Assembly (NCBI GenBank): GCA_009746045.1
Contig: RPFO01000002.1
Location: 1,953,006-2,017,005, forward strand
Source of the DNA: Mesostigma viride
Lineage: Eukaryota; Streptophyta; Mesostigmatophyceae; Mesostigmatales; Mesostigmataceae
Length of the DNA stretch: 64,000 nucleotides
Direction: 5' to 3'
In this document: piece by piece, positions 1 through 59,300 of the stretch
Position numbering within the stretch: the first letter of the stretch is position 1
Layout of the letters: each line of letters starts with the position of its first letter
Notes under the pieces: generated by a model
The model's database searches: none
What the model was told of the DNA's origin: nothing
What the model saw: only the letters and a program-made list of their open reading frames with translations
Made by a program: the position numbers and the translations under genes

Positions 1-369
1 TGGCTTTAAATACATCCTAGGCTACTTCATGCAAGGGTGGGAATGTAAGCAACACTTGCTCTAGGTGCCGCAAGGGCACCGGCACCACCATGCTGTCTCA
101 GGTTCAACCCAGCTAAGGGGATCCTGGCACGGGGGAGGAAGATCATCATGGCTATGCAAGGGCTAGGGCATGGCTTCTCGACAGAGAGCATCTCTCTGCA
201 TGGCATAGCATGGCTAAGTTCTTAATGCAACATCCATGGGGGTCCCATTATAGACAAAGCATGGCTAAATGTTGAAGGCATCATCCATGGGGGCCATTAT
301 GGGCGCACATGCGCGTGGGCCACATGCTAGGCTAAGCCTTACTAATCTACACTACTGGTATATATATTC
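1..369. other. No gene seen; probable LINE-internal sequence
   Basis: No convincing coding region. The stretch lies downstream (on the minus strand) of the ORF1-like protein at 370-1715. It shares loose motifs, such as the phrase around 146-165 with 'gcatggct' and 'caagggcta', with 53225-53250, which lies beside a second ORF1 remnant. It is therefore probably part of the same retroelement family rather than unique DNA. Nothing else could be recognised. Confidence 0.35.
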
Positions 370-1715
370 CTAGTCTGAGGTGGCAGGAGGGGGCTGCCAG
401 GGCTTGTGGTCAACGTGGATGACCGCCCCCCTCCAGTATACCGGCTTCCCCCTTGCGCTCTGCCGGAGCTGAAGGTAGGCCGGCCATAGCTCGCGTCGCC
501 GTTGTTGCTGGGCCAGGGTCAAGTCGTCGTCCAGCGTGAAGCGAGTCTCCGAGAGCTTCTTGCGGCATTTAAGGAACGCCAGCTTGTCCGCCATGTACTT
601 AAAGGTGAGGAGCACGGGGGCCGGGCCAGCCTTCCCCGCGCGCGGGGGAGGCGGACAGCCGACATGTCCAGCTCACCAGTGAGTAACATGGGGGCAAGAA
701 TGGCGCGCTTAAATGCCTCAAGAAGGCTCGTGGAGGTCTCACCTGCCTGCTGGTCGAAGTGCTTGACGATGACATTGTGGCTGCGCCGGGCGATGTCGGC
801 TTCCTCGCGAAGGTCGAGGGCTTGTTGCTTGAGTTGTGCCGAGATGGTGGAGGTGGTGGAGGTGGTGTGCTGCTTAAGCAAGTCCGCCCAGGTGGAGGGA
901 GCATCGCCGGCCGAGCCAGCAGGCGCCGGCTGGGCGGCGATGTCCTTCACCGCCTGGGCGGTGAGGCCGGCGGTGTCATGCAAGCTCTCAAGGGCGTTGG
1001 CGGTGGCTTGAAGGCGTTGGTCGAGGTCGAGGAGCTGGGCTTTGATGTCGGCAGTGGAGGCGGAAATGGCCGTGGAGGTGGAGGCGGCGGCGGTGGAAAT
1101 GTGAGGAAGTTCAGCAGTCAGCGTGCCGCCGATTGCTGCTATGTCGGCAGCAAGGGGGGTCACGTGCTGCTGAAAGGCTTCCGTGAGGATGGAGCGGAGG
1201 GTGGGGACGGAAAGGGGTGGAGCCCAGATCTCGCCGTCAGAGCGCTGGAGAAGGGAGTTGAGGATGGCGTGCTGGAGATGGGGGCGGACGCAGCCGGACA
1301 GCCCGTAGATGTTGGCCCAGCGGCTGCCGTCCGGGGCGAGGAGGCGATTGATGGAGTGGAAATGGAGGCACAGGTCGTAAAGCGAAGCGTAATCCCCGAA
1401 GAAGATGCAGCGCAGAGCATCGGTCGGAGAAATGGTGGCCCAGTCGTAATCTGCGACCTTGAAAGGCCGGGGCCGAAAGCTCGGTTCTGGGCGTGAAGAC
1501 CCTCCTGTGTCGTCGGCTGGGCGGGTGCGCTTGGGGTCAGGCGATGCAGATGGCGAGGCGTTAAGCCCGGGGGGTTGCTGGACGACCACCAGTGCACGAC
1601 TAGTGTCATCGCCGCCTGCCGGACCTGAAGGCGAAGCTGCAGCCTGAGCTGCAGAATTTTCATTGCCGAGCGCAGCCGCCAGGCTGCGTTGCGTCGAGGC
1701 GCGTTTGTGCGCCAT
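370..1715 (-). pseudogene. LINE ORF1-like protein (nucleic-acid-binding), frameshifted
   Basis: Reads from an ATG at 1713-1715 leftwards. The N-terminal ~100 residues are Ala/Ser/Pro-rich and disordered. A long Ala/Thr/Leu heptad-like stretch (about residues 190-290) looks like a coiled coil. A segment with RSHNVIVKHF resembles the RNP2 strand of the RRM in L1-type ORF1 proteins. The frame is then broken in the GC-rich stretch around 600-660. The neighbouring frame (370-615) continues the family's C-terminal domain: VLLTFKYMADKLAFLK, then TLDDDLT, QQQRRRELWPAY and the final VYWRGAVI. That order (coiled coil, RRM, C-terminal domain with LDDDLTPAQ and RRELWP-like motifs) is typical of non-LTR retrotransposon ORF1 products. 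The frameshift makes this copy defective. It runs opposite to the reverse transcriptase at 2044-3312, so the two belong to different insertions. Seen: motifs and frameshift. Inferred: function. Confidence 0.72.
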
Positions 1716-2043
1716 ATATTGCGTTTTAGATTCGGAAAATTATATCAGCATGTGCGTCTTAGAAAGACGAAGCGATAGTGATATTCACGGCTAAATTCGG
1801 TGCTCAAACGTGAAAGTTATGAGCTCCGACAGCCATGGCTACCTCGTGGCCGGAATTTTATATGGCCTCTACAAGGCCTTGACAACATCTATCTACAACA
1901 TCAAAAGCCAATTAACTAGTATATAAGCTCTGTACCCTAGGGGACCTGTCGGGCGTGCCTCCCGTATCAAGTAGACAACCATATTCTGATCAGGCACGCC
2001 GTATGTTTGCACACGCGGGCGCTTCCCCACGGGAGGGGGTCCG
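1716..2043. other. Gap between two opposed LINE fragments
   Basis: AT-richer spacer of 328 bp between the ORF1-like protein (minus) and the RT fragment (plus). It probably holds the 5' leader of the minus-strand element and the 5' truncation point of the plus-strand one. A CTCCCGT-type hairpin half occurs near 1956 and a CCCCACGGGAGG palindrome near 2025. Both resemble the hairpins at retroelement 3' ends elsewhere in the window. No ORF of note. Confidence 0.3.
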
Positions 2044-3449
2044 TTGTCCTATATAGACAGGAGTTATCAAGGAGACAGTTTGCCGCTGGTCTTCATTTTT
2101 GTTGACTATATCAAGGCCTTTGACACGGTTCTCTGGGAGGCTCTTTGGGCCATCCTAGCTCTGGATCGGGTACCACCTGCGTTTATTGCTGCCATTCGCC
2201 GACTGTATGAGGGCTCACAGGCAGTAGTGCGGACTGCGGAGGGCACCACTCCACCATTCCCCCTTCACCACGGGGTGTGGCAAGGTTGTGTCCTGTCCCC
2301 ATACCTGTTCATTATTGTCGTGGATCACGTCATGCGCCGGGCACGTGCGCGCTTTACTGCTCTTAAGGGGTTCGAGCCAGGCTTGGACATCCTTAACGTG
2401 AAAGAGCACGGCGGGGTTAGACCGGGGTACCGCCTTGCCGACCTGATTTATGCGGATGACACCACCCTCATCGAGCGCCCCGAGCACATTCAGACCTGGC
2501 TGGACTGCCTGGGCCTGGAGGCGCGGGCGGTGGGGTTGGAGATTAGTGTCAAGACTGAGGCGATGGTGATAGGGGCCTCCAGTAAACCACCGCTGCCGCG
2601 CCTGCTCGACGGGACGGAGGTCCCGTTCCGCGACCGCTTCAAGCTGTTGGGGAGCTGGCTTCCTGACACCGACGACGATGTGGACACCCGCATCGCCCTC
2701 GCCTGGGCCAAGCTCCGTTCGCTCACACCTTACTGGCGCTCGAAGGGCCTGGACGGGCACCGCAAACGCATGCTCTTCAAGGTCCTCGTCCTCACGGTGC
2801 TCACGTATGGCGCCGAGGCGTGGACCCTCCCACCCAAACTGGCAGCTCGGCTCGACGGCACAGTTTACAGGATGCTCCGGCAGGTCCTTAACGTAGGTTT
2901 TTCCGAGCGCCCGTCATCAGAGTCTTTGTATCATGGCATGCCTCGTGTTTCGGACGAGATTAGGCAGCGTAGGATAGCATTTGTAGGACACCTTGCCCGC
3001 ACTAGCCAGGTCGACACCACCCTTGGTCTGGCCGGCCCCCAGCGGCTTGGCCAGCCAGGGCGGCATATTCTGACCTGGCCTGGCCCCGCGGACATTCCCA
3101 AAAGGGTAGGGAAACCTGTCACCAACTACGTTCAGATGTTGCTGGACGACCTAGTGGTCCCAGCCCAGTTTGAGCACCGCATACACTCTCTCTCCCGTCT
3201 TTGGACTGTCATGCAGGACAAGACGCGGTGGAAGAAGATTGTCAAGGCGCACACGCCCGACCCTGTGGGCAAGCCACCTCCCCCCAAGCGGAGGAGGCGT
3301 TTTGATGAGTAGTGTAGTTAGGATTTTCTAGATAGCCTAGCGTTAGTATAGTTCGATCACGCGGCTTCCTCCACCCCATCCATCATGGAATATGTGCTAC
3401 ATGACCTCCCCACGGAGGCATGTTCTAATTTAATTTAATTTAATTTTTA
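2044..3449 (+). mobile_element. 5'-truncated LINE: reverse transcriptase C-terminal half, 3'UTR and TTTAA tail
   Basis: An open frame of 422 codons (2044-3312) encodes the palm and thumb of a non-LTR reverse transcriptase. Visible motifs are FVDYIKAFDTV (first catalytic Asp), WQGCVLSPYLF (family form RQGCPLSPLLF) and the catalytic YADD box at about residue 139. Downstream come LTYGAEAW and RRIAFVGHLAR, typical of the region after the RT in LINE ORF2. The endonuclease and N-terminal RT parts are missing, as expected for incomplete reverse transcription. A 3'UTR of about 140 bp ends in a hairpin (CCTCCCCACGGAGG around 3407-3420) followed by a TTTAA tail to about 3449. The RT frame is still open, so this copy is young or conserved, but it cannot be autonomous. 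Relatives: 51253-51837, 54605-54850 (minus) and tails at 49640 and 58631. Confidence 0.93.
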
Positions 3450-3730
3450 TCAAGGAGACAACCAGCGCCAGAGGTATGTTCCTAATTAATTCATTAGCAT
3501 GAACCTCAATTGTGTTAATGCAGCTAGCCGATTAAACAGCCTGGATTATGCCTCTGGGAATTTATTGAACTTAATCAATCAATTACACATGGTCCCGTAG
3601 GGGAGGGCACGCAGCATTTGACCCTCGGATTGATGAAAAGAAGCCGATACTAATCTAACTGCCCTATTAATTAATTAATTGAATTAATTAAACTCGTGCT
3701 CCCGTGGGGGAGTCACGGAGCCTTAACCCC
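3450..3730. repeat. Cluster of retroelement 3' ends (minus strand)
   Basis: Two short insertions are readable on the minus strand. One has a hairpin at 3591-3607 (CCCTCCCCTACGGGACC) with an AATTGATTGATT tail at 3571-3586. The other has a hairpin at 3699-3712 (CTCCCCCACGGGAG) with a TTAATTAATTCAATTAATT tail at 3665-3692. Position 3449-3469 carries TATCAAGGAGACAACCAGCG, a motif repeated at 6195-6217 (minus), 53817-53838 and, partly, 55819. No coding potential. Confidence 0.6.
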
Positions 3731-4219
3731 GATGGATGGATGGATGGATGGATGGATGGATGGATGGATGGATGGATGGATGGATGGATGGATGGATGGA
3801 TGGATGGATGGATGGATGGATGGATGGATGGATGGATGGATGGATGGGTGGGTGGGTGGGTGGGTGGGTGGGTGGGTGGGTGGGTGGGTGGGTGGGTGGG
3901 TGGGTGGGTGGGTGGGTGGGTGGGTGGGTGGGTGGGTGGGTGGGTGGGTGGGTGGGTGGGTGGGTGGGTGGGTGGGTGGGTGGGTGGGTGGGTGGGTGGG
4001 TGGGTGGGTGGGTGGGTGGGTGGGTGGGTGGGTGGGTGGGTGGGTGGGTGGGTGGGTGGGTGGGTGGGTGGGTGGGTGGGTGGGTGGGTGGGTGGGTGGG
4101 TGGGTGGGTGGGTGGGTGGGTGGGTGGGTGGGTGGGTGGGTGGGTGGGTGGATGGGTGGGTGGGTGGATGGATGGATGGATGGATGGATGGATGGATGGA
4201 TGGATGGATGGATGGATGG
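3731..4219. repeat. Tetranucleotide microsatellite (GATG)n-(GGGT)n-(GATG)n
   Basis: About 490 bp of perfect to near-perfect tetranucleotides. The flanks are GATG and the centre GGGT, so the centre looks like a later expansion of a mutated unit. It abuts a retroelement 3' hairpin at 3699-3712. Every long ORF across it (poly Met-Asp-Gly-Trp, poly His-Pro-Ser-Ile, and so on) is a repeat artefact. Confidence 0.97.
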
Positions 4220-6736
4220 GTACACACACTCTTATCGTTCTAAGCTATCTACAAAACAATCATACTCTATCTATGGTGCCCGCAACCCTAGGGGTCTTGT
4301 CTAGCATGCTTCCCAGGTGTGCAAACTGCCCTATTAACGCCCCTAATGATAGTCTAGTCTTGGGGGCTGGGGCCCGGGTGCACGAAGCTGCCGCCATGTA
4401 CTTAGGTGACACGCGCCTTCTTTACTGGAGGGGGCGTGTCGGCCTCCACGACCTGGTGCCATGCCATCTTGTCCTGCATCTCACAACCAGGAGAGTTGTC
4501 CCTTGTTGCAAAGCTGCACCATCCACAGGTTACCTATTCACAGGCAAGGCAAGTCAAGGCATCAACATGCTTGCAACCAGGTTGCCTATCCCTATGTTCA
4601 GGCAGCTCATGTTGGGGCATCAACAGGCCTACAACCTGGTCAAGCCTACTGCTAACAGGCAACTCATGTCGGGGCATCAACAGACTTACAACCAGGTTGC
4701 CTACTCACTGACAAGCCAACACGCCTTGTTGACGCACATGGCGCAAGTCCACCCATTCACTGGCTTGCGAGCACCGGCCATATGCCGCACGCACGTGCCG
4801 TATGGGAGTTTGCACACACCGGCGAGAGCCACGCGCCCATCGAGCAGGCAAGCACATGCATTGGTCCGCCATCATGCCATATGAATAATAGGCCATATGG
4901 ATGCCATGAGCAGTGGCGGGGCCCTGCCCCACATACACCACACGGTCGGCAAGTCCACAACGGAGGGGGAAGTGCTCATCTTTCATTGATCAGCGATGCT
5001 TGTGCGTGGGGTGGACCACCTATGACGTGGGACCGCTCAAGCTCACCTGGTGCTATCACATGTCAGCCTGTACCCTGCCACCTGGCAGGCCCACAGCAAG
5101 AGGAGGAGGAGGAGGAGGAGGAGGAGGAGGAGGAGGAGGAGGAGGAGGAGGAGGAGGAGAGGAGGAGGAGGAGGAGGAGGAGGAGGAGGAGGAGGAGGAG
5201 GAGGAGGAGGAGGAGGAGGAGGAGGAGGAGGAGGAGGAGGAGGAGGAGGAGGAGGAGGAGGAGGAGGAGGAGGAGGAGGAGGAGGAGGAGGAGGAGGGAA
5301 AAAGACGTTGAGCTATGCAGTGGGCGCATGCACACGCAGGGGTAGTGAGCCGATGGTGTCATGACGCAATTCATGGCATTGACATCCTCATTGAATAGGC
5401 CAAGCACATGACCTCTACCATACACACAAAAAGCTACTGCCAGCGCTCAATAGAAGCATCGGTGAAGGTCCGACAACAGTGGACACCAATGCACAGCAGT
5501 GGTGCCCGCCTCCATCAAACCGATGCCATCTTGGATTCTGAAGTTAAAGCCGCTGTGGTTGCGACAATGACGCGCCCTTCGCAAGCCATTGTTTGCAAAC
5601 TTGCGGACGCCATTCAAGTCTTTTAAAGCCAGCCATCCATCCCGGCGCGCACACGGTTCCCATAGGGATTGATGGTGGCAAGCAGTCGGTTCCTACTTCG
5701 CAGTCCCCGCGCGCTTACTTAGCGGCAAAGGAATCATTTGTGCACAAGCACATCAAACCGTTGGAGGACTAAGTTTTGAACGCAGGTCATATGGCGGAAT
5801 TTCGCGGCTACAGGGGAATCCTGATGCTAAGGCTGACAAAACTATTGTCCCCACTACCATTGACATTTAAAAGATCTCATTTGCAAGACTGCATCGAAGA
5901 GAGGAAGGCGGATAGTACGACTGCGCCGACCTATTTGTACGGTAGGTAGCCTCGTCGTTCCCGTGTCATGCGAACGGTTTGTGAAATTCTATTTTCATGT
6001 TAAAGCATGGAACTATCTCCAGGTACCGCTTTTTATATGGGTTACTTCTGCCGTAGATGATAGTGTAATTTCGATTGAATTCGTGAATCGCTGTCGGTTG
6101 ATATTTGTGTCGAGGTTTTGTCTCTTTGACATTGCGCATGGTTTTTTACTAAACAACAGTATGGGGTTGGTCCGGATTCTCCCGATTTCTGGCCTGCGCT
6201 GGTTGTCTCCTTGATATAGTAGGGGGGGGTTAATGTGTTAGAAATATTAGGGGGCAACAGTGTTGTTTAGGTCATGGTTTAGGTTATCCCTGAACTCTGA
6301 AGTCATCTTCCTGTTGAAGTCCCGGGCCCCCCGGCAGGCAGCAAGGTTCCGAAATTTGTGAGACGGAAATATTGCTTCTAAGCAATAAAGAGAGTACAGA
6401 GATTTACAAAATGTAAATTCCAGTTCTGTTGTCGCACTGGGTTTCGGCGTGCAAATCCAGCATCCAGAAGACAGGAACGCTGCAGGACTAGGAAGTCTGG
6501 AAGCGAAAAGCATCCAGAAGACTTGCATTATGACTATCTGAACCGTTGAATATTCTATGCCAGTATCCGATCCAACGGCAATGCTGAAATTCTTCTAGAC
6601 CGCGGGGGCGCGGAAGCCGTCCCCACGGTACTTGTGCTGGGCTGGTTAGAAAGAGCACGCGGAGACCTTCACACGGAGACGTTGTCGCTCACAAATCCAT
6701 CAATTTTTCTAGCCGGTTCCATCGTCGATTTACGCC
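4220..6736. other. No gene recognised; minor tandem repeats and GGA tract
   Basis: Contains an imperfect ~60-bp tandem repeat (about 4545-4710, three copies around 'aaccaggttgcctat'), the GGA microsatellite (listed separately) and unique-looking sequence with only short ORFs. At 6168-6217 the minus strand carries a 50-bp sequence identical to 53817-53866 on the plus strand, so at least part is dispersed repeat. I see no family-level protein match. Confidence 0.5.
5100..5297. repeat. (GGA)n trinucleotide microsatellite
   Basis: About 200 bp of almost uninterrupted GGA/GAG with one register slip near 5160. The poly-Glu, poly-Arg and poly-Gly ORFs that cross it are artefacts. Confidence 0.97.
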
Positions 6737-9763: not shown

Positions 9764-9871
9764 TGCAGACGATATTTGTTTAAACTTTTGTGTAATTATT
9801 TTTCTAATGAGATTAGCATAGTACTCCGTGGCATGCCTTTGCGCATGACACGCAAGTACTTACTTACTTAC
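9764..9871 (+). mobile_element. SINE-like element, TTAC-tailed family, copy 1
   Basis: Starts TGCAGACGATATTTG. The core is TAATGAGATTAGCATAG, then a CGTGGCATGCC...GCGCATGACACGCAAGTAC segment able to fold back, and a (TTAC)n tail. Related copies lie at 51835-51954 (minus) and 54863-54957. It sits in the intron just before the Cys/His exon of the makorin pseudogene. Confidence 0.6.
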
Positions 9872-10200
9872 TGCTTTCCCCCCCGTGTGTACCTCATGGC
9901 CGCTGGCCTCGACCTGCCTCGTTGCCAGCTGTGCCCCTCCTGCAACCGCGAGCGGCTGCACCCGTAAAACCTTCAGCAGCAGGAGCAGCAGCTGGCCAAG
10001 TGCCAGGTGAGGGAGACCGTGCCCTGTATGCTACCCATTTGACCACGATAGGACCATGCTTGTATGCTATCGATTAGACCACCATAAGACCGTGCTCTAT
10101 TTGCTACCCATTTGACCACCATAGGACCGTGCTTGTAGGCCACCATAGTGAAGGGAGCCATGATCAAACAATTTGGGGAAGGCACTTACAAGCCAGGGTA

Positions 10201-11124: not shown

Positions 11125-13074
11125 AATCAAGATCCCCGGCCCGGCAGATGGCAGTAGCGGACTGTTGCATTAGCGGTGACTGGTCCGCCTCCGCGGGTAT
11201 GGAAATGGATGGAAGCCCATGGAAACCAGGAGTGCCCCCTGCACAGAAAGGAGAGCGACAAGCTGCAGTTGGACATAAGATGGCCAGTGTATATTGGCTG
11301 TCTTTCTGGGATTCTTTGAAGTAGTCCTTTTCGTGGCAATGTGTAGCGTGTCGATAGCATCTGGCCATTCTTTTCCCGCCGGCCGCCAGCCAGCCAGAAT
11401 TGAAAAAATCTTTTCATTACGGAACAGGCAACTGAGTTGTACTAGTGTGACAGGTCAGTCCTTGGAATATGTCTCTACCAGTTTGCGGGTGACCTACCGG
11501 GCTGGGACATGCTAGCCTCGCGTTTGTGCCCAAGGTGCTTCACGTACATCCAGATGTGATACTTTCCATTGAGGCTAAACACCATGGTACAAAATGAATA
11601 CTTTCGCCTACGTGGGCATTTGGCTGCCATGGGTTGCCCCCCCTATCAGCCTTACATTCTGTAGTACACTGAAGTGCTTTCACTAGCTGTTGTACGGGCA
11701 GCATTAGGGAGAGTAGGTCAAGAAGTCTGCTGGATATAAATTCAATCTGTTAATTATCAATCTGTATTATTCGAGTTAGAATCGTTGCGGGCCAACGGAC
11801 AGAAATGTGGAGCCCCAGGAGAACCAATGAGGCAGCTACCAAATAACATTAAGTACCAATGTGCAAATTAACTTTTAATGACACAACCAGAAACTGTATT
11901 TGTATATTAATGAATACTTCAGTAAGCTATATGAAAACAGTGCAGGGGAAACTAGAAGAGAAAGAGAAACATGGAAATTGGAGCCAGCTGTGGGGATCGC
12001 ATATATACAGCTAAAAGTACAAGTTAATGGACACATGTACTGCGTCACGTCAGCATAAATTTAAGTCCTCATTGGAAATTTAAATGGGGCGGGAGCACGA
12101 GTTAACGAATTGATTACTTAATCAATTAATTAATTACAGGCAGTCCCGTCAGGGAGCGTGCGGATCGAGCGGTAAACCCTTGAATTGAATGCATGAGAAT
12201 GCCTACGGTTCTAATGGGTAATTGCCCGACGCGAGTACTCAAGTAGGGGGCAGGGCCCTGGTTGACACGATTGCGCCCGTGGCGGGTGATTCGCGTCTTC
12301 CCTAACAGAGGACGCTTATTAGCCTCCACTATATACGTGATGCCATGCTAGCTTATTCTGCATCTTTTATTCGTCACGTACGCATAACCCCCACCGACAA
12401 TTGGGGTTTTCATCCTTCATAACTGTTTGCCACCTATCTTTACGAGTCACCTGCCTCCATATTACAGAACGACCTGAAGCCGGCCGCCCGGGCATGAGCC
12501 CGTTCCTCCTAGGGTAGCACATGTCTAATCCCACAGCCTATCACGAAAAGTCCAGTGGCGACCTTCCCGTGTGCGGCCAGCTGGGGCTCGCCATGCATGA
12601 GGACGAAGCGCCGGCCCTGGCTGGGCAGACGTGAAGGATACCCCATATCAAAAGATCGGCACGGCTCAGTGCCAGCCCCCTATTCAATGAGCTAGGAAGC
12701 AAGCTTTGGCGGCGAGAATTGATCTGTCAGCCCCGGTACAGTGGAAAGACAAATCCGCCGTTACAGATCTCACAAAAGCAAAGGACAGCTGCCGCCACCG
12801 AAAATATTGTCGAGGCACGCAACAAATTGTAAACTAAATGCCACCGAGAATATGTACATTCATTCATATTCATTCACACGCCCCCGTTGGGGCAGTCACG
12901 GCCGGGGCACAAAATCTTTGAGAGGTACCTTTCATCCCTGACAGGTGTGAAGGATTTATTGCAGTTCATGATATTACATTCCGTAAGAATGTGATTGATA
13001 TAGCAATAGGAATGCCTGGCAAGACCTTTGAAGAGTCTGCCTAATGACCAATCTAACGAGAAAAAAAAAGTGCT
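11125..13074. other. Spacer between the convergent makorin genes
   Basis: No protein family recognised. It contains two minus-strand retroelement 3' ends. One is at 12110-12170 (hairpin CTCCCTGACGGGACTG, then a TAATTAATTAATTGATT tail) and the other at 12857-12915 (hairpin TGCCCCAACGGGGGC, then a GAATGAAT tail). The remainder is AT-rich with short ORFs only. The 3' ends of both makorin transcripts should lie here. Confidence 0.5.
12974..12978 (-). terminator. Candidate polyadenylation signal TGTAA of makorin
   Basis: TGTAA on the minus strand about 100 nt past the makorin stop codon (13075-13077). TGTAA is the usual signal in chlorophyte green algae, so this depends on the inferred lineage. 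A five-base match is weak on its own. Confidence 0.3.
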
Positions 13075-24517
<11,443 letters not shown>

Positions 24518-25358: not shown

Positions 25359-28300
25359 ATGGCTATTATGGATCAAAGTAATTCAGGGCCTGAGCATGCG
25401 TTTGGGGCCCATCATGGCCTGGCTGTGCTGTTAGATGGTGCGGGTGCTTCTAGCACGCCCTCCGTGGTCACGCGGGCGGGGCGCCAAAAGGACATCAAAG
25501 AAAAGAGTTTGGATGATAAATTGCGGTGGATATTGGAAATACCGGAGTCCGGGAACAGACCGTGCCCGATGTTGTGTGGTGATTCCGCTGTTGACTTCGT
25601 CAAGGTGCAGCATGTCCTGCATGAGCGTCTAGCGTGCATTGCAACCGCTTGCGCAAGGGCGGACATTGAGAAGGGTAAAGATGGAGACCAAACGAGTAGG
25701 GTAGAGGAGGAAATATCCCAAGACCTGTTGGAAAATGCTGAAAGCGCTAAAACCGCGCCGGGACCGCACGCCCATACTGGCCAGGCGAATGCTGCGAAGG
25801 ATGGGGTGTCCGGCGGTAGCACGTCTGCCCGTGGACGGCTGGGTCCTGAGACCGTGCGCATGCACTGGGAGAGCTGGCCGGCGGAAAGCATTCGCTTTGA
25901 CAACACCGGGCTGAGATTGGAGAGCCATGGAAATTTCTCCAGCGCACGCGCCAACGTGTGCGTGATGGAAGGGCGGTGGATGTACGAGGTGATTCTTGGT
26001 AGCTCCGGCATTCTACAGATCGGCTGGGTGACCATCCACTGCCCCTACACGCACGAGGAAGGCGTGGGCGATGCGCCCGACTCGTACGCTTACGATGGCA
26101 AGCGCGTCGCCAAGTGGAGCGTCGAGTGCACGCCCTACGGTCAGCCCTGGGTGGCCGGTGACATCATCGGCTGCTGCATCGACCTGGACGAGGGCCAGGT
26201 GTCCTTCATGCGCAACGGCGTGCACTTGGGGGTGGCGTTCTCGAACATCCGCAGGTGCGCACGTGGGCTGATGACCCTAAACCCTAAACCCTAAAACCTG
26301 GCAGATGTGCAGGTTCCGCTATTAACCGTCTTCCCTCTTGTCGGGCGGGTCTGCATGAGGCAGGGAAGATGCTGTGTCGCATGTGGCACAGTTGTTTGAG
26401 GAGGGTGGAGTTGAGGGGGTGTATGGCAGAAGTGTGAGATGTGTGGCTGTGTTGTACGGATTGTTTGGCAGTGGCTCGCGCAGACGCACCCGCTGCAGGT
26501 GTGAGCAGTCTTATTGCGATAGGAAGTTATGTGAGAGGCGACAAATGAGCGTGGGGGGTGGGGGGGTGGGGTGGGGGGGTGGGGTGGGGGGTGGGGGTGG
26601 GGGGTGGGGGTGGGGGGTGGGGGGGTGGGGGGTGGGGGGGGGGGTGGGGGGGTGGGGTGGGGGGTGGGTGGGGGGTGGGGGTGGGGGGTGGGGGGTGGGG
26701 GGTCGGGGGGTCGGGGGTGGGGGGGGGGTGGGGGGTGGGGGGGCGAAGGGTGGGGGGGGGGGGTGGGGGTGGGGTGGGGTGGGGTGGGGGGTGGGGGGGT
26801 GAGGGGGGGGGGCTGGGTGGACATGAGTAACAACAGACTCATCTCTCCCACACCCCCCTTTCAACCAGGCCTTTTCATTTGCGCGTCGCCAAAGATATTT
26901 GCCGAAGAGGGGGGGTAGGGGTTATCATTGCTCTTCCCTTCAGCGCTATTTCCTTCATTGCCCATGCACTCCGCTCAAGAGCTCCCCCCCATGGCTCCCC
27001 TTGGCTGTTCCACGCACACTTACTTTCGCGGCTTTTGTTAAACTGCAGCTGTGAATGCAGGTGGGGCCAAGGGTACCTTATGTTAAGAAGAAATAGGAGT
27101 TATGCACTCTTTTGTTTCACCAGGATGTGTCTCCCGGTCCGCGTGTTTATGCATGTGCATGCGCCACAAGGCTCTCCTGTCGCCACGTGGCGTCACCACG
27201 TGGGTCGCATGTGGGTCGCATGGGTCTGTGGTCCTGATCGCCAGTCGAGTGGCTGGGTGCCCTCTTGTGGCTGGGTGCCCTCTTGTGGCTGGGTGCCCTC
27301 TTGTGGCTGGGTGCCCTCTTGTGGCTGGGTGCCCTCTTGTGGCTGGGTGCCCTCTTGTGGCTGGGTGTGTCGTGCACGTGATGACGCGCGCGCCCATCAT
27401 GGCATGCGCCCGCACGATGACGCGCACGCAGGAAGGAGAAAGGGCTGGCCTACTTCCCCGCAATCAGCCTATCCCACGGGGAGAGCTGCACGATCAATTT
27501 CGGCGCGCGGCCCCTGGCGCACCCCCTGCCAGGGTTCCTGCCGCTGCAGCCGCCGCCCCCCGCCACCGAGTGCGAGCATGCGCGCTACCTGCTGGGGTGC
27601 CTGGAGCGGCTGGCGTCCCTTGCGCCCGAGCCAGCGAGTCCCTGCGAGCATGGGGAGGACCGGGCCAAGGGCCGTGTGGACATCGCCGCAGATGCCACGT
27701 GCAACGCAGGAGCTGTGCTTTGCAGAGATGGCAAGGGGCAGGCGGACCAAGACGCACAGGTGGGGGCGACATGCGCTGACAAGCCGCGTGGGCACGAAAG
27801 CACCCACCCCGCCACGCCGCTGCTGGCCCCTGGCTCCCTGACCAGCGAGGACACGGTTCTGTTGGCGTCGGTGCTGAGTGAGCCACTGGCCCCGCTCCTG
27901 TGCAAGCCGTATACCGCCTGCGCCGCGTTAGTGCCCTTCCTACTCTCCCTCGACCGCGCTGGTCAGGCTGCCAGGGACGCGTCAGGGCGGCACCTGTTCG
28001 GCCCCGCGCCCGACGACAGCATGTTCACCCTGGACTACGTCCCTGGGAGGGTCCAGGGGGGAGGCGCCGTGCCCGGGTTCATCCCTCACGTGAGCCTGGA
28101 CAGGGCTGCGCTTGACTACGTGGACAAGGAGCGCGGCAAGGAGCGGGCAAACGCAGTGGCGCCCTCGGTGGAGGCTGCTGCGTCGCCGCCCGCGGTTCCC
28201 CGTCTGCTGGCGCGGGTGGTGGACCTGCTGGCGGTGTCCCTGGAGCCCTGGGAGCTGGGTGGCATGGCCCACCTGTTGATGGAGGAGCTGGGCCTGCGCA

Positions 28301-34300: not shown

Positions 34301-37300
34301 CTCGTGCGTGCGGTCTGTCCTTGCACCTCCTTACGCACCTTGTTTCCGCCTTACGCCCCCTGTCCCCCCTTGCGCCCACTCCCCCCCCTTACGCCCACTG
34401 CCCCCCATTACCCCCCCTTGTCCCCCCTTGTCATGTCCCTCGTCCCCCTTCCCGCGTCGCGCCAGGTGGATGCTTTCCACATCTTGACGGAGGCCGGGGC
34501 CGCGCATGAGGCAGGCGTGGTGCCCGCGTCGCACGGGCCCACCGCGCACGGCTTTGTGAGTGGCCGCTTGTCCGCCGTAGAGTAGTAGGGTGCTTTCTTT
34601 GCCAGGGCGAGGCAGGGTGCTCGCTATGTTACTTTGATTTAGGCATTTCCATATTAAATGTTTAGGTCTCCACAACTCAGGTGGGTACTCCTTTGTGAGT
34701 AAGGTACCTGCCATCACGAGCTGCCAAGAGGGGCGACCCTGATGGGACGGCCCAGCTCGCCTGCCTGTTGCTCATTGTTGAAGTGTGATCGCGCATGTAA
34801 CTCCCCCACCCACCCTTCAATATTAGGGCACTGGCATGATTGGTGTGTGGGCATTAAATGTTGGGCATGTCATCAGTCTCGATGTCCCTACGGTGGATAC
34901 ATTGTTTGGATGTATTGGGAAATCATAAGCGGGCTAGGACTGGTGCTCTAGTTTCAGGCCTGTACGCCTGCTGCTTGCCGTGTGCTTGTGAGCGTGTCCC
35001 TGGATGAGCCCTCGTGGAGGAGCGCGTGGCCATGCTTGCGCACGCACATGTCTGCTTGCACACCGCTGTGCTGGCAAGGCTGCTGCTGGAGACGTCTGCA
35101 CAGCGCAAAGTGGCACTTGTTGGCAAGGCTGAGGTATTGCTGGCCACGATGTCCCCTGTACACACGTCTGCGATCGGCCCGGCCTTTTCCGCATGTCGTG
35201 TCCATTAAAAGGATGTTTAAGTTTTGCTGTCTTTGCGTGTGGGGCAGCACGACTATGCTCTTGGCGTGTTCCTGGTATATAAGGAATTATGCTGTCTGGG
35301 CGTGTTCGTGGTATAGGAGTTATGCTGTCTGGGCGTATTCGTGGTATAGGAGTTATGCTGTCTGGGCGTGTTCGTGGTATATATGGGGTTATGCTGTCTG
35401 GGCGTATTCGTGGTATAGGAGTTATGCTGTCTGGGTGTGTTCGTGGTATATATGGGGTTATGCTGTTTGGGCGTGTTCGTGGTATATATGGGGTTATGCT
35501 GTCTGGGCGTATTCGTGGTATATATGGGGTTATGCTGTCTGGGCGTGTTCGTGGTATATATGGGGTTATGCTGTCTGGGCGTGTTCGTGGTATATATGGG
35601 GTTATGCTGTCTGGGCGTGTTCGTGGTATATATGGGGTTATGCTGTCTGGGCGTGTTCGTGGTATATATGGGGCTATGCTGTCTGGGCGTGTTCGTGGTA
35701 TATATGGGGTTATGCTGTCTGGGCGTGTTCGTGGTATATATGGGGTTATGCTGTCTGGGCGTGTTCGTGGTATAGGAGTTATGCTGTCTGGGCGTGTTCG
35801 TGGTATATATGGGGTTATGCTGTCTGGGCGTGTTCGTGGTATATATGGGGTTATGCTGTCTGGGCGTGTTCGTGGTTTATATGGGGTTATGCTGTCTGGG
35901 CGTGTTCGTGGTATATATGGGGTTATGCTGTCTGGGCGTGTTCGTGGTATAGGAGTTATGCTGTCTGGGCGTGTTCGTGGTATATATGGGGTTATGCTGT
36001 CTGGGCGTGTTCGTGGTGTATATGGGGTTATGCTGTCTGGGCGTGTTCGTGGTATATATGGGGTTATGCTGTCTGGGCGTGTTCGTGGTTTATACGGGGT
36101 TATGCTGTCTGGGCGTGTTCGTGGTATATATGGGGTTATGCTGTCTGGGCGTGTTCGTGGTATATATGGGGCTATGCTGTCTGGGCGTGTTCGTGGTTTA
36201 TATGGGGTTATGCTGTCTGGGCGTGTTCGTGGTTTATATGGGGTTATGCTGTCTGGGCGTGTTCGTGGTATATATGGGGTTATGCTGTCTGGGCGTGTTC
36301 GTGGTTTATATGGGGTTATGCTGTCTGGGCGTGTTCGTGGTATATATGGGGTTATGCTGTCTGGGCGTGTTCGTGGTATATATGGGGTTATGCTGTCTGG
36401 GCGTGTTCGTGGTATATATGGGGTTATGCTGTCTGGGCGTGTTCGTGGTGTATATGGGGTTATGCTGTCTGGGCGTGTTCGTGGTTTATATGGGGTTATG
36501 CTGTCTGGGCGTGTTCGTGGTTTATATGGGGTTATGCTGTCTGGGCGTGTTCGTGGTTTATATGGGGTTATGCTGTCTGGGCGTGTTCGTGGTTTATATG
36601 GGGTTATGCTGTCTGGGCGTGTTCGTGGTATATATGGGGTTATGCTGTCTGGGCGTGTTCGTGGTGTATATGGGGTTATGCTGTCTGGGCGTGTTCGTGG
36701 TATATATGGGGTTATGCTGTCTGGGCGTGTTCGTGGTATATATGGGGTTATGCTGTCTGGGCGTGTTCGTGGTTTATATGGGGTTATGCTGTCTGGGCGT
36801 GTTCGTGGTATATATGGGGTTATGCTGTCTGGGCGTATTCGTGGTATAGGGTTATGCTGTCTGGGCGTGTTCGTGGTATATATGGGGTTATGCTGTCTGG
36901 GCGTGTTCGTGGTATATATGGGGTTATGCTGTCTGGGCGTGTTCGTGGTTTATATGGGGTTATGCTGTCTGGGCGTGTTTGTGGTTTATATGGGGTTATG
37001 CTGTCTGGGTGTGTTCGTGGTATATATGGGGTTATGCTGTCTGGGCGTGTTCGTGGTATATATGGGGTTATGCTGTCTGGGCGTGTTCGTGGTATATATG
37101 GGGTTATGCTGTCTGGGCGTGTTCGTGGTATATATGGGGTTATGCTGTCTGGGCGTGTTCGTGGTATATATGGGGTTATGCTGTCTGGGCGTGTTCGTGG
37201 TTTATATGGGGTTATGCTGTCTGGGCGTGTTCGTGGTGTATATGGGGTTATGCTGTCTGGGCGTGTTCGTGGTATATATGGGGTTATGCTGTCTGGGCGT

Positions 37301-49329: not shown

Positions 49330-49698
49330 GTGATACTCATGGTGGCGCCGGTATTTCGGGCCAGAACGGCAGCTCTCAGCAGTCAGATTCACAGTACACA
49401 ACGCATGCTAGATTATCTACGCCTCTGCGTTGCGCAATCATCCCCGAATACCCAGAGCAGGCGGCAGGCTCGCATCCTTCGCCTGCAGGACAAGCTCCAT
49501 GCGATGAAAAGCACTATTCCATCCATCTCCCTCCCCTCTGTTCCATCCCCACCCCCATCTTCCGTTGCATCCACCCGCATCACCCATCCTCGTTGTTCGA
49601 TTCCACGGCTTCGCCCACCTCCACCCATCCAGCAAGGAATATGTGCTACATGATCTCCCAACGGAATCATGTTTTAATTTAATTTAATTTAATTTTAG
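49330..49698 (+). mobile_element. LINE 3' end with TTTAA tail
   Basis: The last ~55 bp (49640-49698) match the LINE at 3390-3449: GGAATATGTGCTACATGA, a degenerate hairpin CTCCCAACGGAA, then a TTTAATTTAATTTAATTT tail. Upstream, a 107-codon frame (49330-49653; RMLDYLRLCVAQ, RRQARILRLQDKLH, then a Ser/Pro-rich stretch) shows no RT motifs. It may be element-derived or host sequence. Confidence 0.65.
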
Positions 49699-51252: not shown

Positions 51253-51837
51253 TTGCAGACCGGCGTATTTCGGATGAGACTGATAAGGCAGCGTAGCCGG
51301 ATAGCATTTGTAGGACATCTTGCCCAGTCAGGTAGACACCGCCCTTGGTCTGGCCGGACCCCAGCTGCAGCAGCTTGGCCAGCCAGGGCGGCATATCCCG
51401 ACCTGGCCTGGCCCCCGCCAAGGACAAGCCCCGGCAGCCGGCAGAGCGGGTAGACCTGCCATGATGAACTGTATACAGATCAGTTGCTGGCCGACCTAGT
51501 GGTCCCAGCCCAGTTTGAACACCGCATCGGCCTCCCTCTCTCTTCAATGCTTGGGCTGCTATGCAGGACAAGACGGAGGTGGCAGACCATTGTCCAGGCC
51601 CACACGCCAGCCTACACGCCAGCCCCTGTGGGCAAGCCCCCCCCCCCCCAGGAGGAACGGGGGCGCTTTGCTGAGTAGAGTAGCTAGGATTTTTGTAGGT
51701 TATAGCTTAGACGGTCAGCTTAGTTAGTTTTTGCGGCTCTGCTGTCCCCCACCCATCAGCAATTGCTGGAATACGTGCTACATGATCTCCTAATGGAGCA
51801 GTCATGTTATGATTTAATTTAATGTAATTTAATGTAA
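51253..51837 (+). mobile_element. LINE copy 2, ORF2 C-terminus and tail, frameshifted
   Basis: Aligns with 2950-3449. RQRSRIAFVGHLA is followed by a frameshift; DLVVPAQFEHRI resumes in another frame, and the end VGKPPPPQEERGRFAE then stop parallels VGKPPPPKRRRRFDE of the first copy. The 3'UTR, CTACATGATCTCC hairpin region and TTTAATTTAATGTAATTTAATG tail are conserved. Degenerate, non-functional. Confidence 0.88.
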
Positions 51838-51954
51838 GTAAGTACTTGAGTGTCATGTGCACGGGGATGCCACAAAGTACTACTACATATGCTATAATCT
51901 CATTAGAAAATAATTACCGCTATAGCTTTATAAAGCTACAAATATCGTCTGCAG
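51835..51954 (-). mobile_element. SINE-like element, TTAC-tailed family, copy 2
   Basis: On the minus strand it reads TGCAGACGATATTTG, an insert, GTAATTATTTTCTAATGAGA, TTGTGGCATCCC, GACACTCAAGTAC and a TTAC tail that runs straight into the LINE tail at 51837. It matches 9764-9871 and 54863-54957. Confidence 0.6.
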
Positions 51955-52056: not shown

Positions 52057-53022
52057 ATTCATTCATTCATTCATTCATTCATTCATTCATTCATTCATTC
52101 ATTCATTCATTCATTCATTCATTCATTCATTCATTCATTCATTCATTCATTCATTCATTCATTCATTCATTCATTCATTCATTCATTCATTCATTCATTC
52201 ATTCATTCATTCATTCATTCATTCATTCATTCATTCATTCATTCATTCATTCATTCATTCATTCATTCATTCATTCATTCATTCATTCATTCATTCATTC
52301 ATTCATTCATTCATTCATTCATTCATTCATTCATTCATTCATTCATTCATTCATTCATTCATTCATTCATTCATTCATTCATTCATTCATTCATTCATTC
52401 ATTCATTCATTCATTCATTCATTCATTCATTCGTTCATTCGTTCATTCATTCATTCATTCGTTCATTCGTTCATTCATTCATTCATTCATTCATTCATTC
52501 ATTCATTCATTCATTCATTCATTCATTCATTCATTCATTCATTCATTCATTCATTCATTCATTCATTCATTCATTCATTCATTCATTCATTCATTCATTC
52601 ATTCATTCATTCATTCATTCATTCATTCATTCATTCATTCATTCATTCATTCATTCATTCATTCATTCATTCATTCATTCATTCATTCATTCATTCATTC
52701 ATTCATTCATTCATTCATTCATTCATTCATTCATTCATTCATTCATTCATTCATTCATTCATTCATTCATTCATTCATTCATTCATTCATTCATTCATTC
52801 ATTCATTCATTCATTCATTCATTCATTCATTCATTCATTCATTCATTCATTCATTCATTCATTCATTCATTCATTCATTCATTCATTCATTCATTCATTC
52901 ATTCATTCATTCATTCATTCATTCATTCATTCATTCATTCATTCATTCATTCATTCATTCATTCATTCATTCATTCATTCATTCATTAAACTCGTGCTCC
53001 CGTTGGGGAGTCACGGAGCACC
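52057..53022 (-). repeat. 930-bp (GAAT)n array as the tail of a retroelement 3' end
   Basis: 52057-52987 is ATTC/GAAT, about 230 units, with only a few GTTC variants clustered at 52432-52470. On the minus strand it directly follows a 3'-end hairpin (GACTCCCCAACGGGAGCACG at about 52993-53012, then AGTTTAAT). The same hairpin precedes a TTAAT tail at 3665-3724 and, in related form, a GAAT tail at 12857-12896. The microsatellite is therefore most simply read as an expanded retroelement tail. Serine/Ile/His/Phe-rich ORFs are artefacts. Confidence 0.85.
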
Positions 53023-53449
53023 GAAGTGCTTTTAATCCCTGTATGTGCACATTGCACAACAGGAAGAAAGCCGCAGAGACCCCCTTTCTCCTTCATGCCA
53101 GAGGCATGCCACAGCTGCAATCGGACACGGTAGACGATCCGGCGGCAAGTTCTGCTGTGGGTGCAATAAGATCCATGTGAGCATATCATAGCAAGGAGCG
53201 TGGGCAAGTGATCTGATCATATCCAGGACGTAGCATGGCTGTACAAGGGCTAAGCTAAGGCTAGGGCTGGTTGTGTACCGTGTGTTAGCGGTGCACGTGA
53301 CTAGGTAATAATGGTGTATGGCACAGCGTGGAAATCATTCTAAGCATGGCTGCCATGGCGGCAGTGACTACCAATGGGTACAAGCTAGGGCTATTATACA
53401 AGCTACTCTAGCCCACAGGGGGCGTCCACATCTTGTGCATGGTTGATCA

Positions 53450-53866
53450 TCAGGTCCCCACCCCTCCAGTACACCTCATGGGCTTCTGGGGGTCCTGCTT
53501 GTGGCGGAGGTATTCCGGCCATAGAGGTCGCGTCGCTGCTGCTGCTGAGCGGGGGTCAGGTCGTCGTCCAGCGTCCAGGTGAGGTTGTGCAACCTCTGGA
53601 AACGAGAAAGGAGCCGCTGCTTGTCCTCGGGGGAGGGGAAGGTGAGCAGGACTGGTGTGGGAGCAGCCTTGACGTCCCGTACGGTAAGAGTTGAGCGCCT
53701 ATTGTACTCCAGCGCCGGGATCCCCTATATCCAATGTTCAGGGTCTTCTTTGTGAAAGCCTCGTGTCCAGCTCACTCCAATGTCGCCATGGGCTCACTCC
53801 AGGGCAGCCCCCTGGCATATCAAGGAGACAACCAGCGCAGGCCAGAAATCGGGAGAATCCGGACCA
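53450..53866 (-). pseudogene. LINE ORF1-like remnant, copy 2
   Basis: On the minus strand the frame reads LTVRDVKAAPTPVLLTFPSP, then LDDDLTPAQQQQRRDL, then after a one-base shift LWPEYLRHKQDPQKP. This parallels the C-terminal domain of the ORF1-like protein at 370-660 (VLLTF, LDDDLT, RRELWPAYL). Upstream, weaker similarity to the AFKRAIL region is visible near 53750-53830. It is broken by at least one frameshift. The 50 bp at 53817-53866 are identical to the reverse complement of 6168-6217. Confidence 0.72.
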
Positions 53867-54862: not shown

Positions 54863-54957
54863 GTACTTATACTTTCGCGTAATTATTTTCCTAATGAGAT
54901 TAGCACAGTTCTCCGTACCAAGCCTGTGCGCATGGCACGCAAGTACATACATACTCT
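54863..54957 (+). mobile_element. SINE-like element, copy 3 (ATAC tail)
   Basis: CGTAATTATTTTCCTAATGA, GATTAGCACAGT, CTCCGTACC, GCGCATGGCACGCAAGTAC and an (ATAC)n tail; the same family as 9764-9871 and 51835-51954. It is followed without gap by the 60-bp repeat at 54955-55014. Confidence 0.6.
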
Positions 54958-56319: not shown

Positions 56320-59300
56320 CCCGATAACACCCAGGCAGTAGTGTGCGTGCAGCGCCGCTGAGGGGGCCAGGGTGTGGCAGGGGTGGAGAACGCGGCGAAA
56401 CAGACCAAGTCGTGTGATCCAAACCGCAGGGCATGCGGAAATATTGTGAGCAGATGCCACGCAGGCTGGTGCAGTACTTGGAATTTGGGATGCACCTTTG
56501 CTCTGGCCCCGGTCACGCGCGCGGGACTTGCCGTAGTCGCAGGACATGAAGAGCCACGTAAGCAAGCATGAGAGGGCACGGGGCGTCGCATTGCACGGTA
56601 CCGCCAACTTGGTGGAACGTGAGCACAAGCGGGCTGGATTTTCAGGCCATGCTAAAACATACCCCGGAGTATCCCCGCGGGGTGCGACCGTGCCCTATTA
56701 GCCAGCAGCAGCACATGCGGTGCGCCACGGCATGCTTTTGTCCATGGGGGTGCCCGAAGAGAGAGGTCAAGCATGCCACGTGCTGGAGGTCAAGGGGACG
56801 AAGGCACTGAGCACGCAACGCCAGCGCCACAAGGTGTGGATGGGAACGTGCGAACAGCCAAGGAAACAAGCCCCCCGAGACCCCGAATATACATCCGCAT
56901 ATCCTCAAGCATTTACTTCAGCATATGCATACACGAGTGCATCGCTCACCGGAGTAGCACGCATCCAGGACCAGCATCCATATCTCTTGCTCACCGGAGT
57001 AGCACGCATACAGGACCAGCATCCATATCTCTTGCTTACCGGAGTAGCACGCATACAGGACCAGCATCCATATCTCTGGGATCAGGGGGCGGCTGCAAGC
57101 ACCCACCACAAAAGCAGCAGCAGGGACGCAGCAAGCCGGATGAGGCGGAGAAAGCATGCAGGTGCCGTAGGAGATGACAGAGATGCGTGATAATGGCTTG
57201 CCAGCAGAATGGCACCAGCGTAGCTACTAAGGCCACCAGTACCAGGGAAGGAGGGGAATGGCACAAACTATTCGATGGCTCAGGAATATCTCCATTAGCT
57301 GCTATGTTAACACTAGCGCAAGTGTGTTTCTGCTATAACTTTCCAATCCGACAGCCTTGCAACAAGGACTGCGTGCATAACGCCTTGAAGCTGTGCGCCC
57401 TGGGCAGGTCCCCGCCCCCCCCCCCCTGAGGCGGCACTCTGGCAACCCCTGCATGTCGGCATCCTCTTCCACCACAGACTGCCAGCTGTCGCGATGACAC
57501 AACGCATGCAGCGCAGAGGTGTCGAACAGCTACTTACATCCTACCGTTCCCTGTGAGGCATGCTCCATCCGAGCACATGGCTGGCACTGGACGCCAGCCA
57601 TTCCCCTGGGCACGGCCAGGCAGGTGCATACTGCATGCGGTGCCCTGTGGGCCCCTGCCCTAGTACAGCAGTGACGATGCTGCAGATACCACAATGCGGC
57701 CAGCAGGATGCCATCGCATGCGGTTGGCGCAGCCACTCCACACAACAACGTCCTGTCACACGCACAACCCCCCCTAAAAGGACAACGCCGGTTTCAGGCA
57801 AGGGCTGTGGGGCGTCCCGAGTATACAGGCAAGAAATCTACCGAGAAGGGCATGTGCTGCCCAGGCAGCGCTACGGGATGGTGCGAGCCACAGGCATGCA
57901 GGCACCACCCAGGAGAAGGCACACAGGGGAAAAACAGGGGGAGAACAATGAGGGGCACGGCTTGTAGAGGAAGGGCAATTTCTCAAGCGTCAACTGCGCA
58001 TGCTTGGCACTCACTTGTCGGCGAACAGCTTGGCGGAGAGTGCGTTGGAGATGGCCAGCGGCAGCACGAAGAGGGCCTGCGGCGGCCGCAAGGCACGGGG
58101 CCAGGGAAAAGGGGGCATTGTGAGGGTTCTGGGAGGGGAAGAGAGGGAAGGTAAGATGGGGTTGTTTGACCTGCGGACAACACATGGCCCAATGGCATGA
58201 CACGTACCCAACACGGCCGCAGCCTGACCCATGCTCATGCAAGGTGATAGGAGCAAGGTGATCGGCAAACACCATAAGCCATGCTGGACGACGAAACAGG
58301 GACTATGTCTGAGCATGATCCAAGTGAGCATCAGCAGCAGGCATCACAGGCGGCAGCACAGCGTGTCCCTGCACTACCCAGGTGGATGCAGGCATGCAGC
58401 ACGACACGACGCAGCTCAAAGCCTCAGTATGCCATCTATATGGCCCCCGGAAACAAGTAAGTGCTGCCATTGGCCAGAATACGCAGCAACCGGTTTCCTT
58501 GTTCATTACCCCCTCCTGACATATTTCACCCCCTCCCCACCATTCCCATCCTCTGCACGCCCCCTTCCTATTCCTTCTGCACGCCCCCTTCCTATTCCTT
58601 CTGCATGCCGCCTTCCTATTCCTTCTGCATTAAATTAAATTAAATTAAATTATAACATGCCTCCGTGGGGAGGTCATGTAGCACATATTCCATGATGGAT
58701 GGAGTGGAGGAAGCCGCGTGATCGAACTAGCCTAACTCTAAGCTATCTAGAAAATCCTTCTGCATGCCGCCTTCCTATTCCTTCTGCACGCCCCCTTCCT
58801 ATTCCTTCTGCACGCCCCCTTCCTATTCCTTCTGCACGCCCCCTTCCTATTCCTTCTGCACGCCCCCTTCCTATTCCTTCTGCACGCCCCCTTCCTATTC
58901 CTTCTGCACGCCTGCAATGCACTCAAGCAAATGCCACCGGCTGGTAACAAAAGCTTTCCAGCCCTCTGCCACCACCGGCTGGTAACATGTGCTGGTGTCG
59001 CCACCCAAGCTTACTTAACCGTCATTCTGTTGGCCCCTGGCTAGAATGCTCCCCACCACCAAGGTGCTGCCAACCAGCAGATAGCCAGGGTGGCCAGGAT
59101 CCCCTGGGTAAGCTAGCCACCTACCAGCGTCATGCCGGTCTTCATCCCCAGCGGCTCGTCGCACAGGTTAGCGAGGATCATGCGGCCCTGGGGGGCGGGG
59201 GGGGGAAGAGGGGGGAAAGGGGGGAAGCCATACATGCCAATGGACAGAGCGGAAGAGGCAAGCACATAAGACTTGGGTGGCAGTGGCGCACAGCACAGCG

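Follow-up and report, generated by a model that had tools for sequence, protein, structure and literature searches.

A small hairpin standing just before a short AT-rich repeat probably serves as the template tag at the 3' end of one family of non-LTR retroelements in the 440-Mb genome of Mesostigma viride, its binding by an enzyme being putative. We followed it in the window (the whole stretch of 64,000 nucleotides that was analyzed, C1591:1953006-2017005, from a genome of 439.9 Mb in 2243 contigs), which resembles eukaryotic nuclear DNA as judged from its gene layout, and in further fetched loci (numbered L). The original prediction, made from nine sites in the window, held that differing bodies keep one hairpin, and this is what we found: it terminates two LINE types, LINE-A and LINE-B, as well as an element of 1.95 kb that has a single protein frame (ORF1) and lacks a reverse transcriptase (RT). 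A hairpin family like that of stringent LINE/SINE pairs is thus largely supported, as far as sequence comparison goes.

Detection of the Hairpin

Seven of the nine sites share one structure: TGCT leads into a stem of 10 bp that has one bulged base and is capped by a loop of four bases, and the short AT-rich repeat comes next. These sites (3407+, 3591-, 3699-, 49655+, 51785+, 52993- and 58660-) were picked by both a structural descriptor and a covariance model, and the predicted positions and strands proved correct to within about a dozen bases. The other two, 12140- and 12880-, are GC hairpins before AT tails that neither method picked, and we did not count them as members. Furthermore, 3407, 49655, 51785 and 58660 are copies of a single family, LINE-A, alike at the 3' end, so the nine sites are not independent; at these four, the predicted TTTAA tails stood.

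Could the hairpin be no commoner near AT tails than elsewhere, the outcome that the original prediction had named as adverse to it? The hairpin word CTCCCNACGGGAG is not enriched in itself (52 window matches at up to 3 mismatches, whereas 20 Markov sequences average 59.6), yet 6 of the 52 precede an AT-rich stretch, versus 0.05 expected (first-order Markov, n = 20). The descriptor (YNAY loop, two closing C-G pairs, at least 8 bp) was composed after the sites had been inspected and hence is not blind on the window; it picks nine sites there, seven with an AT-rich tail and two without (2027+ and 30678-), compared with means of 3.12 for all sites and 0.02 for sites with an AT tail in 100 first-order Markov sequences. 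Contig C1 was then sampled as 2 kb plus twenty 10-kb pieces (202 kb), with five pieces added later. The unchanged descriptor picked 16 sites in the 202 kb, 10 of them with an AT tail, the Markov control being for the window only. An additional family, G, came to light there.

The covariance model was built from 23 aligned rows. In the window, with filters off and E up to 5, it returned exactly seven sites (36.4-61.5 bits), all of them training rows. In 316 kb (the window plus fetched loci), it gave 29 matches at E up to 1, of which 26 were below 1e-4. Among these 26 strong matches, 23 are training rows, and the others are L025 2553, L028 8946 and L019 1-29, the last being cut short and previously found by BLAST. 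Table 1 collects the features in the window.

Table 1. Retroelement features mapped in the window (model match, covariance-model match).
Feature	Position	Strand	Evidence
Family G element (1952 bp) with ORF1 and without RT, frame broken, final ~71 bp beyond the left edge of the window	1..1880	-	12-bp direct repeat ATAGATGTTGTC, window copy 1881-1892, other left of the window
LINE-A copy, 5'-truncated inside the RT, 3' hairpin, (TTTAA)n tail	2078..3446	+	RVT_1 E=8.7e-14; 14-bp direct repeat TTATCAAGGAGACA at 2064-2077 and 3447-3460, touching both ends
LINE-A 3' hairpin, bulged A, loop CCAC	3399..3423	+	Model match 3393-3433, 61.2 bits, training row
Family C hairpin, GATT-type tail	3579..3618	-	Model match, 36.4 bits, training row
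LINE-B-type 3' end comprising a 3' UTR that contains a CATC microsatellite, a hairpin and a TTAA-type tail	3671..4323	-	Model match 3684-3724, 53.9 bits, training row; 14-bp direct repeat at 3657-3670 and 4324-4337 (0 of 60 controls); body likened by eye to LINE-B of L020
Body-less TTAA array	20954..21020	.	12-bp direct repeats ATGGTGGATACA at 20942-20953 and 21024-21035
LINE-A-type 3' hairpin, bulge moved, (TTTAA)n tail	49648..49695	+	Model match 49642-49682, 55.7 bits, training row; region 90% identical to 3368-3447
Diverged LINE-A copy, RT fragments, hairpin loop TAAT, tail	51264..51830	+	Model match 51774-51817, 43.1 bits, training row; blastn 74.8% to 2944-3446; RT fragments by tblastn
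Copy with ORF1 C-terminal fragment, no RT, B-type hairpin, ~930-bp (GAAT)n tail	52058..53683	-	Model match 52982-53022, 54.4 bits, training row
LINE-A 3' end, strongly 5'-truncated, within 24-bp tandem array	58630..58754	-	95% identical to 3320-3446; flanked by TGCAGAAGGA, ambiguous, target itself repeated

Two LINE Types End in the Hairpin

We inspected the bodies of the 26 strong matches on the same strand over 1.1 kb upstream. In eight, an RT precedes the hairpin, its nearest piece at 79-181 nt, and four have an ORF1 at 392-505 nt; one has a distant RT piece alone and 13 have neither, a look-back of 1.1 kb being too short to reveal an ORF1 upstream of an RT. The claim that the sites are retroelement 3' ends is supported. 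The RT pieces match RVT_1 in Pfam and R2, L1 and other RT proteins in PDB; RVT_1 and SPRY are the search-backed protein names in this work, and all others were assigned by eye. One LINE-A copy, in L005, breaks off before a complete 5' end, inside a putative endonuclease (by eye), and Pfam gave no match for that stretch.

The RT pieces before the B-type hairpins at L025 2553 and L020 8434 are 39-64% identical to the LINE-A RT, a range to be read beside that of the RT pieces found by BLAST in decayed LINE-A copies (41-60% at 51774 and 44-82% at L020 2389). From the RT divergence, together with the different 3' UTRs and hairpins, LINE-A and LINE-B appear to be two RT lineages. One RT for all sites, as had been proposed, is not supported by these data. 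The 3' flank of family C shows a weak likeness to the LINE-A 3' UTR, the local alignment beating 100 of 100 shuffles, and this is the sole such case among 21 pairs of segments.

An ORF1 Element without Reverse Transcriptase

The family G element that runs off the left end of the window carries a G-type hairpin 20 nt outside it (L029 946-986, 51.9 bits, not a training row). We had expected a hairpin ~30 nt beyond the edge because the element resembles the one at 52993, although this expectation was unrecorded beforehand. A second element of the kind, in L005, is 1998 bp long and consists of ORF1, a 3' UTR and a G hairpin between 12-bp repeats AAAGTGTATCCT. The 1952- and 1998-bp elements can be aligned over almost their whole length (1487 identities, 319 mismatches and 249 gap positions) and represent a repeated full-length unit with ORF1 and without RT.

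The ORF1 frame is broken in both elements, and the copy in L004 has longer frames. Six ORF1 comparisons over 50-126 C-terminal codons gave dN/dS values of 0.25-0.55, the synonymous sites being much changed in the two lowest and in one more. The ORF1 protein, which by eye may resemble L1 ORF1p, had no Pfam match and no PDB match, and a fold prediction (mean pLDDT 43.6) gave nothing usable.

Which LINE do these elements resemble at the 3' end? The ORF1 elements share a LINE 3' end while their bodies differ: four (window, L005, L004 and L020) have an A-like hairpin and a fifth, at 52993, has a B-type hairpin. A profile was made from four G-type ORF1 3' ends. Two LINE-A ends of 460 nt match it solely over its final 44-47 nt (E 6e-7 and 3e-6), and four B-type LINE ends gave no match at E up to 10. 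Families A and G also share flanking sequence. Of the element at 52993, ORF1 matches this profile at E 7.5e-19, the 3' UTR does so weakly (E 0.018), and the 3' end has no match; its hairpin end instead agrees exactly with three B-type ends (two in L005 and one in L007) over 31-33 nt and is 96.8% identical over 31 nt to that of the RT-bearing LINE in L020. Beyond its ~930-bp tail lies an 11-bp direct repeat of the 5' flank, which the automatic repeat run did not return. Because the 52993 element, with its B-type end, shares ORF1 with the A-like G elements, one ORF1 lineage bears either hairpin type, and we read this as a probable change of helper.

Could the ORF1 elements simply be internally deleted copies of a two-ORF LINE that inherited the hairpin from their parent? 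We regard this as a serious contender, though on balance somewhat doubtful. Mammalian HAL1, an L1 derivative (named in PMC4859970 and PMC4161310), offers an example of such an origin, and none of the LINE-A or LINE-B copies examined was complete at its 5' end, which leaves room for a two-ORF parent. On the other hand, the 1952- and 1998-bp copies, aligning nearly end to end and each with its 12-bp repeat, indicate that a defined unit moves as such, and the LINE-A ends tested match the ORF1 profile nowhere but in its last 44-47 nt, a result with which an old deletion would still be compatible.

On a bolder reading, which we consider rather unlikely, the system would be split. LINE-A and LINE-B would give the RT, and the ORF1 element, its frame under purifying selection, would give an RNA-binding protein in trans. 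The common hairpin class would be the ticket to copying, and the helper would have been changed by swapping the A-like hairpin for a B hairpin.

It is also conceivable, if unlikely, that the hairpin serves RNA stability or 3'-end processing and not the choice of template by the RT. A stem before an AT repeat could shield the RNA; against such a role, one ORF1 copy has the hairpin end of the other LINE type, as a choice of partner predicts.

Covariation of the Stems

The stems covary around parts that hardly change: the TGCT preceding them, the loop and the closing pairs. The alignment comprised 23 hairpins (7 from the window and 16 from contig C1) in 20 distinct rows, and the model alignments A3 and A5 were excluded from the pair counts. 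The loop is CNAC in 22 of the 23 rows and the TGCT is exact in 20, while the position of the bulge shifts in some copies. Compensatory changes, put forward as a check along with the original prediction, were present among the 20 distinct rows. Standard pairs form in 91.5% of the pair cells compared with 77.4% after shuffling, 31 cells carry double changes compared with 11.0, and the covariation score is 0.418 compared with 0.185; by each of these measures, none of 500 shuffles was as high. When the partners were slid, the pairing was 25-54.3% and the score at most 0.162. One stem pair appears as CG, AU, GC and UA. Two further counts show no excess over shuffles: stem pairs in which double changes occur (5 of 10; 328 of 500 shuffles as high) and pair types (11; 359 of 500 as high).

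Descent from one LINE alone, with the structure unselected, might also have made the hairpins alike. Common descent is real, as seen in the flanks and last 44-47 nt shared by A and G and in the weak similarity of C to LINE-A, and many of the double changes fall between families and so represent few events. Descent by itself is nevertheless a very improbable explanation: the double-change cells beat all 500 shuffles, pairing is 25-54% when slid versus 91.5% in register, and part of the double changes occur inside a single family (for example, T-A in a row of LINE-A and G-C in a row of G).

AT Tails and Insertion Sites

The coupling to AT tails persisted over more DNA than had been shown for the original sites, from 10 of 16 in 202 kb to 24 of 26 in 316 kb and 33 of 39 at genome-wide pattern sites. 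Among the strong matches, the AT tail was scored at 0.8 or above, and the two exceptions, L005 2816 and L004 1894, have short or mixed tails. The genome-wide search used a tail-free pattern with one N extra on its 3' side, its hits thus being a length variant; it found at least 39 places, versus 0 for the reversed control. These 39 were all fetched as 179-base pieces. Every one has a model match, the weakest at 16.9 bits, in loci that were selected by a model-like pattern, and in L046 the match lies beside and not at the pattern site. Two of the six tail-less sites, L034 and L040, share identical flanks and may be one event.

Seen from the side of the repeats, 19 of 27 TTAA/TTTAA arrays in 317 kb adjoin a strong hairpin match (the 26 matches plus L029). 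Of the remaining eight, two are body-less between direct repeats of 12 and 13 bp, one has an 11-bp low-complexity match that was not counted, and five have nothing. We read the body-less arrays between direct repeats as likely insertions that copied the tail alone.

Different tails had been thought to mark different families, and they do so in part. TTTAA goes with LINE-A, and TTAA mostly with LINE-B and the ORF1 elements; the exceptions are AATTC in L004, GAAT at 52993 and GATT at 3591.

Roughly 12 of the 27 ends carry candidate target-site duplications of 9-14 bp, including an ambiguous one, and the remainder have none or are at chance level. Where a direct repeat is present, the short repeats stand between it and the hairpin, an order shared with stringent LINE/partner pairs. 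Several of the direct repeats were equalled by 1-5 of 60 random controls; for TTATCAAGGAGACA, 4 of 60 random upstream stretches match equally well. We place less weight on this repeat, at 3407, because part of it is the dispersed motif ATCAAGGAGACAAC, which overlaps two apparent direct repeats. In L007, an apparent direct repeat carrying the motif was rejected: an uninterrupted copy in L019 points to the 11-bp ATTGACATTAT instead.

That the coupling arises because elements land in pre-existing AT microsatellites is hardly credible: some do lie within repeats or tail to tail (58660; 12100, by eye), but wherever there is a direct repeat the array sits between it and the hairpin, and the array begins at a nearly fixed distance from the hairpin.

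Other Repeats and Features

The motif ATCAAGGAGACAAC occurs at 29 places in the window and loci at up to 2 mismatches (in the window at 3449, 6215 (-), 53819 and 55817), and it often opens a longer repeat, CAGCGCAGGCCAGAAATCGGGAGAATCC. A family R repeat has a different hairpin, and an ACTT-type repeat ends some of its copies (9780-9872 (+), 54867-54955 (+) and 51830-51917 (-) in the window; 410-493 and 3255-3327 in L011); one copy abuts the LINE-A tail at 51830. At 12060-12160, two elements stand tail to tail (by eye), and in the plus-strand one no more than ~14 nt of a B-type end is left in front of the tail.

The window also holds a 7.75-kb array at 35259-43009 (36-bp unit, about 217 copies, 97% matching), a CTATCGAC array at 46015-46466 with a flanking direct repeat of ~43 bp (88% identical), an inverted repeat of ~172 bp at 17618-17789 and 18154-18324 (95% identical) and a frame with a SPRY domain at 25359-26294 (Pfam E=6.5e-24). 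It contains no intact tRNA and no Rfam match at gathering level, a scan, made on the window only, that decayed Pol III-type SINE heads could escape. In viral contigs, a protein scan for relatives gave none that was confirmed, a first DNA pattern gave no match, and a second gave two matches without an AT tail that we judged unrelated.

Discussion

How might such a hairpin be used? The RT would hold the hairpin on the RNA, a step that we infer from stringent LINEs. The AT tail would meet the nicked target, and copying would start in the short repeats. Slippage there would produce the ~930-bp GAAT tail and the tail-only insertions, and many copies would stop early, leaving 5'-truncated copies. 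The RT-less ORF1 elements would be moved in trans by the LINE of matching hairpin type, which would be A-like for four of the five and B for one; the ORF1 elements assigned to LINE-A have other tail units than LINE-A itself.

In stringent L2-clade LINEs (ZfL2-1, ZfL2-2 and UnaL2), as in the elements studied here, a stem-loop near the 3' end precedes short repeats. Each ZfL2 protein of zebrafish is reported to bind its own stem-loop; movement of ZfL2-1 drops sharply with a foreign loop and stays at about half with a foreign stem, and in UnaL2 the bulged stem base matters (PMC4176376). Unlike in these LINEs, the hairpin class in M. viride is common to two LINE types and an RT-less coding element, and its binding is putative. 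Among green plants, the described pairs are the monocot L1 with ZmSINE2 and the Chlamydomonas SINEX with RandI or L1-1_CR, which share ~50-80 nt at the 3' end; in the monocot pair, the shared end forms a hairpin that shows compensatory changes, and bases of its loop and stem flank are conserved (PMC3747384). The M. viride partner differs from those described in being a 1.95-kb element with a protein frame, and its hairpin and loop sequences are different.

HAL1, the half-L1 of mammals, has a poly(A) tail. In M. viride, the common 3' end is instead a hairpin plus an AT tail, two hairpin types occur on one ORF1 lineage, and the putative likeness to ORF1p was judged by eye. The elements are alike in having ORF1 without RT, and HAL1 is described as likely moved by L1 (PMC4859970, PMC4161310). 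The best literature matches listed, judged by title and the opening of the abstract, included no account of an algal ORF1 element that lacks RT and carries a LINE hairpin.

Microsatellites made from 3' partial copies have a parallel in the RTE elements of Lepidoptera, for which 3' partial copies ending in short repeats within target-site duplications were described and slippage was proposed; the words 'hairpin', 'stem-loop' and 'secondary structure' are all absent from the main text of that paper (PMC2887409). Unlike in the Lepidoptera account, the arrays in M. viride include body-less ones with direct repeats.

Few elements are understood well enough to say which part of the template their LINE enzyme reads. 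The genome of M. viride offers several natural variants: two LINE types, stems that differ and still pair, a loop that is nearly fixed, and an RT-less coding element with either hairpin. Consequently, how specific an enzyme is for its hairpin, and whether TTAA/TTTAA microsatellites arise from the tails of retroelements, can be tested directly in one organism.
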